Source: Bacillota bacterium
Lineage (GTDB): Bacteria; Bacillota; Limnochordia; DTU087
Direction of reading: 5' to 3'
DNA: 36,112 nt
NCBI GenBank assembly: GCA_012510855.1
Contig: JAAZHE010000024.1
Span: 1 to 36,112 of the forward strand
Below, piece after piece: positions 34,571 through 36,112 of the stretch. Under the pieces are notes generated by a model. It searched no databases and was not told the origin of the DNA. It was given only the letters and a program-made list of their open reading frames with translations. Within the stretch, counting starts at the first letter, position 1; each line of letters starts with the position of its first letter. The position numbers and the translations under genes were made by a program.

Positions 34571-35520
34571 ATGAGTCGCAGGTTCCTAGTAATGGTGCTG
34601 AGTGTGGTGATGCTTACAGCCCTCCTTAGCTGCTGGGCCTATGCTCAGGAGAAGCCCTACATCGCCATGATCTCCAAGGGCTTCCAGCATCAGTTCTGGC
34701 AGGCAGTGAAACTGGGGGCGGAGCGGGCAGCAGAGGAGTTGGTGTTGAGATTACCTTTGAGGGACCGGAAAGCGAATCTCAAGTTGACAAGCAGATTGAT
34801 ATGCTCACAGCTGCTCTGGCCAAAAATCCCGACGCCATTTGCATCGCAGCACTGGATAGCAAAGCAGTCATTCCCCTTCTGGAACAGGCCGATGCTGCCG
34901 GCATTCCCATCGTAGGATTTGACTCCGGAGTCGACAGCGACATTCCCATTGCCACAGCGGCTACCGACAACTACGCCGCTGGTGCGCTGGCTGCTGACAA
35001 TTTGGCAGAGCTCATCGGTTATGAAGGAGAAGTCGCTGTCATCGTCCACGACCAGACCAGCCACACAGGTATCATGCGCCGAGACGGGTTCGTCGACCGG
35101 ATCAAGGAAGCCTATCCCAACATCACTATCGTAGATATCCAATACGGCGGCGGTGACCACCTCCGCTCCACCGACCTAGCCAAGGCTATCATCCAAGCCC
35201 ATCCCAATCTAAAGGGATTCTTCGGCGGTAATGAAGGCTCTGCCATCGGGATCATCAACGCGGTAATCGAGACGAACATGCAGGGTAAGATCGTGATTGC
35301 CGGCTTTGACTCCGGTAGGCTCCAGTTGGATGCCATCCGGTCCGGGGTTATGGCCGGAGCTGTAACCCAGAACCCCGTAGGCATCGGCTATGAAGCTGTA
35401 AAGGCAGCCTACATGGCTATCAAGGGTGAACTTGTTGAGAAAGTCATTGATACCGGCTGCTACTGGTACACCAAAGACAACATGGATGCTGACCATATTA
35501 AGCCGCTGCTTTACGACTAG
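34571..35520 (+). pseudogene. rbsB: Sugar-binding protein RbsB type, with a one-base frameshift
   Basis: The first frame, from ATG 34571, has a signal sequence (FLVMVLSVVMLTALLSC) and a PBP type-1 start YIAMISKGFQHQFWQAVKLGAERAAEEL. Near 34740-34744 the frame changes: GAGTTGGTGTTGAG would read on in the family pattern (ELGVEITFEGPESESQVDKQ) if one more G were present. The second frame then covers the rest, with QIDMLTAALAKNPDAICIA, GFDSGVDSDIPIA, GYEAVKAAYM and stop at 35520. The full protein is about 316 residues. The transport partners are intact, so either the gene decayed recently or the sequence lost a base. LSC could be a weak lipobox. AAGGAGG lies about 11 bases before the ATG. Confidence 0.85.
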
Positions 35521-35579: not shown

Positions 35580-35700
35580 ATTCTGTTGCAGCCCGCAGTA
35601 AACATCAGTACTTCCCAGCAGACGTTTTTGAGGACGCCCTTGTTGACATGGGCTCAGTAGGCATGTGTCCCCATATACATTTAGAAGGGAATGGTTTATC

Positions 35701-35946
35701 ATGGGAATGATAGTATCGTATGGCAGTGACCGCGTCTGGCAGGCTGACGGCATCGGTGGAGGGATCAAATTGTTCGGCGGTTTGGTTGTCGGCTTATTGT
35801 TCGCCTGGATTGGCTCATGGTTTGGTCTTGACCGCCTAATTATCCAAGGCATAATGGAGTTTACCGCATTGAATATCACCAGTGCGGGGTACTATACATT
35901 ATTTGCTTTCCTTGGCCTCATCGGCGGCCTTTTGGGAAAGCATTAG
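35701..35946 (+). CDS. Small membrane protein of unknown function
   Basis: An 81-residue protein with two to three hydrophobic stretches (LFGGLVVGLLFAWIGSW and LFAFLGLIGGLLG) and a Gly-rich lead GIGGGIK. It resembles small envelope proteins of about 80 residues with Gly-rich helices, but I cannot assign a family. The start is taken as ATG 35701, with GAAGGGAATGG upstream; ATG 35707 is possible, and the frame is also open to 35665. Confidence 0.6.
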   Translation: MGMIVSYGSDRVWQADGIGGGIKLFGGLVVGLLFAWIGSWFGLDRLIIQGIMEFTALNITSAGYYTLFAFLGLIGGLLGKH

Positions 35947-36042
35947 GGGCAGGTTTTGCGGGCTTGCTGTCGCCGGGTAGCTTCCGTTAGTGTAAAGTTA
36001 TTGTAGGTCATCCAGATAGGAAAATACTGGTGGGGAATAGAA
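35947..36042. other. Upstream region of the terminal structured element
   Basis: It contains a possible promoter TTGTAG (near 36001-36006) with AATACT about 16 bases later, which would start a transcript just before the inverted repeat at 36043. No gene was seen. Confidence 0.3.
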
Positions 36043-36102
36043 AAGAGATCTCACTGCCATTGCAGGTGGCAGAGCACAAGGCTCTAAGGAGTGAGATCTC
36101 TT
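36043..36102 (+). repeat. Large inverted repeat with predicted three-way junction
   Basis: Perfect 13-base arms AAGAGATCTCACT (36043-36055) and AGTGAGATCTCTT (36090-36102) enclose two small helices: GCCA/TGGC (36056-36070) and AGAGC/GCTCT (36071-36085). AAGGAG (36086-36091), a good ribosome site, partly overlaps the right arm and lies 11 bases before an ATG at 36103. It may be a translation-controlling leader or the end of a mobile element. Confidence 0.6.
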
Positions 36103-36112
36103 ATGAACATAG
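36103..36112 (+). CDS. Start of an ORF running off the right edge
   Basis: ATG-AAC-ATA-G is all that is seen. The codon is preceded by AAGGAG at 11-base spacing within the structured repeat. Nothing can be said of the product. Confidence 0.3.

Follow-up and report, generated by a model that had tools for sequence, protein, structure and literature searches.

A folded leader at the left end of an ISLre2-family insertion sequence may combine a read-through lock with antisense control of the transposase

The window studied here is a whole contig (C84) of 36112 bases from the 248-contig assembly of a Bacillota bacterium, and the contig is broken inside a repeat. At its right end an inverted repeat closes over a ribosome site, which raises the question of what genetic unit the structure belongs to and what it may do there. 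A preliminary description, made from the letters alone, had offered three readings: a mobile-element end, a transposase-silencing leader and an RNA switch. The first is now shown by comparison with other copies, the second becomes the best-supported function, inferred from conserved anatomy, and the third finds no support. The anatomy itself had been drawn correctly. The 13-bp main stem P1 is perfect, its arms AAGAGATCTCACT (36043-36055) and AGTGAGATCTCTT (36090-36102) being fully complementary, and two small helices lie inside it. The Shine-Dalgarno sequence AAGGAG (36086-36091) has its AAGG free of pairing at the junction and its last AG within the right arm; the ATG (36103-36105) follows directly 3' of P1. 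The edge position is literal, with the contig itself stopping at 36112. The minimum free energy of 36030-36112 is -31.2 kcal/mol, while shuffled sequences have a mean of -18.1 (sd 2.81; z -4.66) and 0 of 200 are as low. The features of the region are the following.

35701..35946, forward strand: 81-aa ORF (stop included), co-directional with the element and upstream of it; also listed as 35665-35946 from GTG
35977..35985, no strand: expected site of the 9-bp target duplication (GTAGCTTCC), present in 0 of the 4 right ends found
35986..36112, forward strand: leftmost 127 bp of an ISLre2-family insertion sequence, truncated where the contig stops
35986..36009, forward strand: left terminal inverted repeat, 24 bp, with its partner at the right ends of L034 and of contigs C72, C162, C226 and C119
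36016..36024, forward strand: sigma-H-like -35 (ATAGGAAAA), from the consensus match and family tests
36037..36043, forward strand: sigma-H-like -10 (ATAGAAA); native RNA start predicted at about 36050, the offset being assumed as for L034
36043..36055, forward strand: left arm of main stem P1, from fold and covariation
36056..36070, forward strand: helix P2, from the fold, adjoining P3
36071..36085, forward strand: helix P3, from the fold
36086..36091, forward strand: Shine-Dalgarno AAGGAG, from the junction into the right arm by two bases
36090..36102, forward strand: right arm of P1, from fold and covariation, abutting the start codon
36103..36112, forward strand: opening 10 bases of the transposase gene (ATGAACATAG), the remainder being absent from the contig

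The window-edge feature is almost certainly the regulatory leader at the left end of an ISLre2-family insertion sequence, whose transposase belongs to Pfam UPF0236. A complete element is found in a congener (G003, contig C28, locus L034), where the same ATG starts a 463-aa protein matching UPF0236 with an E value of 1e-74. The downstream gene, on which the preliminary description had made its reading depend, is thus found in the congener. The L034 element ends in 24-bp terminal repeats and carries the 9-bp duplication CAGGAAAGC on either side, 9 bp being the target duplication length of the ISLre2 family. In the genome of the window (G000), with contigs paired by eye, 9-bp duplications were also read by eye at C70/C72 (GTGGGCTTC) and at C139/C226 (TTTAGACGG, boundary shifted by one base), and at C51/C162 the duplication matches at 8 of 9 positions.

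The proposed search for further copies found the leader at five places in this genome, on C84 (the window), C139, C231, C51 and C123, and a left end without leader on C70. Contigs C139, C231 and C51 likewise stop in or shortly after the leader, as is expected because a repeat breaks the assembly; in the C123 copy the gene halts after 28 codons. The transposase search of the assembly gave no UPF0236 match at E<=0.001, which we read as collapsed-repeat loss since the leaders on C84, C139, C231 and C51 sit at contig ends. A contig scan with the L034 protein as query returned 2 loci only. On C70 (L011) the left end is fused to mid-transposase-like sequence, an internal deletion removing the leader. 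The copy at the end of C139 (L008) and on C226 (L171) lies among TGTTCCACGTGGAACA-like sites, which we take to resemble the parS consensus. C123 (L005, 1320-1390) also carries two repeats CGCTAACA(T/C)AAAAG(G/T)GATCCA(T/C)TTTGAC, presumably similar to IS21-type element ends.

The placement of the copies agrees with what has been described for the family. According to the accessible text of Guerillot et al. 2014 (PMC3942029), ISLre2 elements (p-MULT 3), which have a UPF0236 transposase as L034 does, insert some 15-17 bp ahead of sigma-A promoters and turn their right end towards the promoter. The same placement is seen here for L034 and for three of four right ends in the genome of the window. 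By eye, the L034 right end stands 15 bp before TTGCAG-N18-TATAAT, and the -35 of a -35/-10 pair follows the right ends on C72, C162 and C119 at 16, 16 and 17 bp; no obvious -35/-10 pair was seen by eye at the fourth right end, on C226. That accessible text treats promoters as insertion targets, has no occurrence of the word hairpin and does not describe the leader. Two decayed left-end remnants in genome G008 (L025, 1500-1830; L030, 1500-1760) stop just before promoter-like TTGACA/TACAAT and TTGACA/TATGAT pairs. The pair in L025 lies upstream of tRNA-Ser and tRNA-Arg genes, and the L030 remnant lies upstream of an ORF that looks by eye like alanyl-tRNA synthetase; in both, the element is gone and the target promoter remains. 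The window copy has a co-directional neighbour upstream, the 81-aa ORF (no Pfam match up to E 0.01), which ends 39 nt ahead of the left end at 35986 and makes read-through into the element plausible. Further upstream, 34801-35517 encodes a periplasmic sugar-binding protein domain (PF13407).

A UPF0236 match was found in 25 of the 72 genomes of the class and in 142 of the 398 sampled from the phylum. From these lists 90 transposase starts were picked, mostly the best-scoring, one or two per genome. One (L147) was skipped for too little upstream sequence, leaving 89 rows, and four rows (L164-L167) repeat L086, L080, L103 and L087, leaving 85 distinct places. Starts were set by a fixed rule that uses only the codon and the Shine-Dalgarno match, and a stem was called when it scored at least 10 and no more than 3 of 200 shuffles equalled it or, for 30 control starts under the nearest comparable rule, no more than 1 of 60. 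A stem ending 0-4 nt ahead of the start codon is present at 71 of the 85 places (72 of 89 rows) versus 2 of the 30 controls; the other 14 starts fail the rule. The P1-type arms differ in sequence between subfamilies (GAGACCTCAC, GACGAGAAGCC, GAGAATAACTCC and others), and in most leaders read the right arm lies on or adjoins the Shine-Dalgarno sequence. Many relatives have a plain AT-rich loop in place of the inner helices. Annotated plasmid copies (ISLre2, ISGsp3, ISLcr2 types and others) have the same fold in 6 of 7 cases; in the Lacticaseibacillus paracasei copy (L174) the stem is absent from the minimum-energy fold.

Pairing within each leader was then compared with pairing between leaders in a second set of 92 leaders, 71 of them nonredundant (L164-L167, L087, L103, L136 and L140 dropped; 11 loci added). 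Here the in-frame start with the best stem was taken, with that of L137 set by hand, so stem presence in this set is partly by choice and only the 71 of 85 places above test it; the starts of L080, L106, L108, L127, L137 and L141, and of the dropped L140 and L165, differ between the sets. In the 71 nonredundant leaders an arm pairs on average with its own partner at a score of 12.73, against 8.01 with foreign arms (0 of 2000 permutations). The own right arm ranks first in 26 of the 71 leaders and within the top four in 50, similar arms being common among the leaders; in 21 leaders, more than three foreign arms pair equally well. Compensatory changes, the other check that had been proposed, are present: among 13 close relatives, 4 of the 13 P1 pairs show two-sided changes and 95.9% of cells are paired, as counted for P1 only on a closer alignment (A2). 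A structure-blind alignment of distant leaders (A1) misplaced the helices and was not used for pair counts. Sequence comparison shows that an inverted repeat directly ahead of the transposase start codon, containing or adjoining the Shine-Dalgarno sequence, is a widespread family trait kept with differing sequences.

A later set comprised 35 starts from genomes unused before, with the match near the N-terminus and usually one per genome. The stem rule was passed by 16 of 35, and the antisense motif described below (at least 7 of 8 positions) was found in 11 of 35; 21 of the 35 are at least 80% like a known or earlier new leader. Among the 14 nonredundant starts, some of which are fragments or wrongly chosen starts, the stem rule is passed by 4 and the antisense motif present in 4, the latter exceeding the 5/837 background in what is a small set. 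With an alternative in-frame start a stem is found in L198 and L220, and a score of 10 is not reached with any in-frame start in L181, L201, L216, L217, L232, L238 and L239. Two further arrangements were seen in the family. In L090, L093 and L160 (family f98 genomes) the left arm GCTCCCTCCT, some 94 nt upstream, would pair with the Shine-Dalgarno sequence itself, to which it is complementary, across a long A-rich loop. In L075 and L078 a second very stable hairpin stands shortly upstream of the ribosome-site stem.

From this anatomy, RNA reading in from neighbouring genes would hold both arms, fold and hide the ribosome site, so that no transposase would be made by accident. Such a lock on read-through RNA is quite probable. 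It leaves the question of how the element's own RNA would be translated, and here the region around the left arm is informative.

The consensus sigma-70 promoter scan of the window end and the L034 leaders gave no hit. In AT-rich elements the loop opens with an extended -10 (L113 TGGTATAAT; L106, L137 and L152 TGGTAAAAT; L092 and L154 TGTTATGAT). A score of at least 9 is reached in 13 of 71 loops and on the opposite strand in 0 of 71, and a score of at least 8 in 16 versus 2. These loop-promoter leaders are AT-rich (mean GC 0.31 versus 0.46). The window's class has helices in the loop and no -10 there; AGGA-N18-GAA is found directly upstream of its stem. With a spacing of N17 or N18 this motif occurs in 18 of the 32 leaders that have the antisense motif (17 with N18) versus 4 of the 39 others, and shuffles of those 32 leaders, with N17 or N18 allowed, give a mean of 1.4 and a maximum of 5. 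Spacing is sharply defined, with 17 of 32 at N18 and at most 4 of 32 at any other distance from 8 to 27. The looser AGG form is present in 32 of 71 leaders (shuffle mean 6.6, maximum 14). Of 20 leaders in the window's subfamily, several being near-identical copies, 19 have the sense motif.

This pattern resembles the sigma-H consensus (A/G)(A/C)AGG(A/G)(A/T)3-N11-12-(A/G)(A/G)(A/C)GAA(A/T), as given in the accessible part of PMC4754846; promoter lists are found in the part of PMC7438776 that was available. In the window, ATAGGAAAA-N12-ATAGAAA (36016-36043) matches 14 of 16 consensus positions, a near match and not a full one, and weak alone since the two strands of the window hold 32 matches of equal or better score, itself included. 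L034 has near matches of 13/16 on the sense strand and 12/16, with GAAC, on the antisense strand. A sigH gene is found in 40 of 40 genomes searched (39 above cut-off), which permits, and does not show, sigma-H dependence of transposase transcription; that sigma-H would be the factor is an evenly balanced call. With the native start placed 7 nt past the motif by assumption, and with the motif nearest the arm used where there are several, all 31 leaders examined have their predicted start within the left arm, 3-10 nt from its outer end. The native RNA probably starts inside the repeat, a claim we hold with less assurance than the lock.

A second promoter-like pattern points the other way. A full -35/-10 score of at least 10 is reached on the antisense strand in 13 of 24 genes and on the sense strand in 2 of 24, and these higher antisense scores led to the motif tests; both promoter motifs were first noticed in the same set that was used for counting. 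In codons 4-12 of the window's class, ATTC lies mostly at +10 and TCCT mostly at +32, that is, antisense AGGA-N18-GAAT; in the window copy these codons lie beyond the contig end. At 7 of 8 positions or better, ATTC-N17/18-TCCT is found at 32 of 71 starts versus 5 of 837 windows from other parts of these genes, and the perfect motif at 22 of 71 starts versus 0 of 837 inner windows. Some form of it is present in 10 of the 11 leaders of the window's subfamily with enough sequence, and variants read GTTC in L034, L004 and L005 and ACTC in L022. The AT-rich class has TGTATAAT-like antisense sites, mostly at codons 3-6, which score at least 7 in 15 of 16 versus 12 of 55 others. Tested against codon choice, a sigma-A-type antisense -10 reaches p<=0.05 in only 3 of 31 nonredundant genes, and protein and codon bias explain much of these TGTATAAT-like sites.

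It could be that the read-through lock alone is real and that the antisense motif follows from protein or DNA constraints, with no antisense RNA made. This view takes its strength from the stem, the strongest part of the evidence, from the window element lying so close behind a co-directional ORF, and from precedent in Tn10 and IS200 (titles cited in the accessible part of PMC2965389). The AGGA-N18-GAAT motif speaks against it: in 20 of 71 genes it is stronger than synonymous recoding would give (p<=0.05), and N18 is kept where the motif is shifted, by 2 nt into another codon frame in L054 and L077 and by 3 nt in L124. The recoding and frame-shift evidence calls for a nucleotide-level reason, and we regard the lock without antisense RNA as unlikely, though the most credible of the alternatives. 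An antisense RNA is somewhat favoured on these grounds.

Where such an RNA would end is suggested by an A-rich tract. A makes up 66% of the 10 nt ahead of the left arm versus 34% at 15-25 nt before it, giving a U tract in the antisense RNA. The tract is richest in the AT-rich class (7.6 versus 6.3 of 10), whose sequences are AT-rich throughout; there it lies outside the proposed sense -10. The tract of the window's class overlaps the sigma-H-like -10 and so gives no independent sign of a terminator, and in the window itself it holds only 5 of 10.

Another reading is that AGGA-N18-GAA on both strands marks sites for the transposase or a host protein, with the stem acting in DNA as a subterminal site or cruciform. 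The motifs do lie close to the left end, and GTAGGA, near to AGGA, occurs in the terminal repeats of many relatives. A DNA-only site leaves unexplained the fixed place of the right arm at the start codon and, in most leaders read, its position over or beside the Shine-Dalgarno sequence, and the spacing and flanks of the motifs fit the published sigma-H consensus (accessible part of PMC4754846); we consider this reading improbable. Far less probable is a ligand-sensing RNA switch or a transcription attenuator in the leader, for which the three-way junction and stable fold speak: an Rfam search of six loci gave 0 matches up to E=1, relatives differ in the sequence, length and number of the inner helices and show no conserved junction core, no U tract follows the stem on the sense strand, and a scan for sense intrinsic terminators at the window end and in the L034 leaders called 0. 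A chance palindrome at a contig end, for which only the edge position speaks, is refuted by the genomic copies, the shuffle test, the 71 of 85 stems and the own-arm pairing, and can practically be dismissed.

The best explanation, which we consider reasonably probable as a whole, joins a lock on read-through RNA, an internal native start and an antisense RNA. The element's own promoter would be placed so that native RNA begins within the inverted repeat, either inside the left arm (window's class, sigma-H-like) or in the loop (AT-rich relatives, extended -10). This RNA would be missing the left arm, entirely or in its outer part, and would have a more open ribosome site. An opposing promoter in codons 4-12 (sigma-H-like AGGA-N18-GAAT; in AT-rich relatives a TGTATAAT-like site) would give rise to an antisense RNA beginning at about the start codon, which would copy the right arm, the loop and the left arm and may stop at the A-rich tract. 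In fold predictions for 16 loop-promoter leaders, the 16 nt before the start codon are unpaired at 0.14 in read-through RNA versus 0.52 in the predicted native RNA. For 31 other leaders the values are 0.17 versus 0.36, and in L034 the region goes from 0.20 to 0.35. This difference suggests that outside RNA would be the main target of the lock, and native RNA that of any antisense RNA made. The predicted native RNA of the window's class retains part of the left arm with P2 and P3, and little or no opening is gained in L099, L122, L123, L149 and L054; as modelled, the partial opening in the window's class is the weak point of the mechanism.

Comparable controls are known from unrelated elements. 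IS10/Tn10 has RNA-OUT antisense control and protection from external promoters, and IS200 combines a 5'-UTR structure with a cis-encoded antisense RNA. The proposed antisense RNA over the transposase start and the read-through fold hiding the ribosome site are as in IS10/Tn10, an unrelated element; here a single repeat would serve both, and the promoters of the window's class are sigma-H-like. A stem holding the ribosome site, with the antisense RNA proposed here, is likewise shared with IS200, whose transposase and ends are unrelated to ISLre2. The transposase 5'-UTR of ISPpu9 folds over the ribosome site and a complementary antisense RNA aids translation (PMC8450116, in the accessible part). 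Fold and proposed antisense RNA are alike, whereas there the antisense RNA helps, and the element and host group are others. 'Mobile attenuators' upstream of transposases are element-borne 5' structures thought to halt expression in transcribed regions (accessible part of PMC2965389). They share with the leader an element-borne 5' structure directed against expression after insertion into a transcribed region, but are sense terminators, whereas the sense target here would be translation; the passage of that text which lists families does not name ISLre2. Antisense RNA with a ribosome-site fold is therefore already known from IS10, IS200 and ISPpu9 (with opposite sign in ISPpu9). The ISLre2 leader would be a variant of these, set apart by the combination of both in one repeat and by the sigma-H-like promoter pair. 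The literature searched, largely without subscription papers, holds no report of such RNA control for ISLre2.

ISLre2 elements are common in the phylum, and how they avoid accidental expression is undescribed in the literature searched. Insertion beside promoters (PMC3942029, in its accessible part) and the window copy 39 nt behind a gene fit a read-through lock. Tentatively, and somewhat short of an even call, one repeat may do three jobs family-wide, as read-through lock, native-start site and RNA-OUT-like antisense body, and in a large branch including the window both opposing promoters may be of the sigma-H type, tying transposase and antisense RNA to entry into stationary phase or sporulation. 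Should the sigma-H reading hold, transposition would be coupled to a developmental switch of the host.
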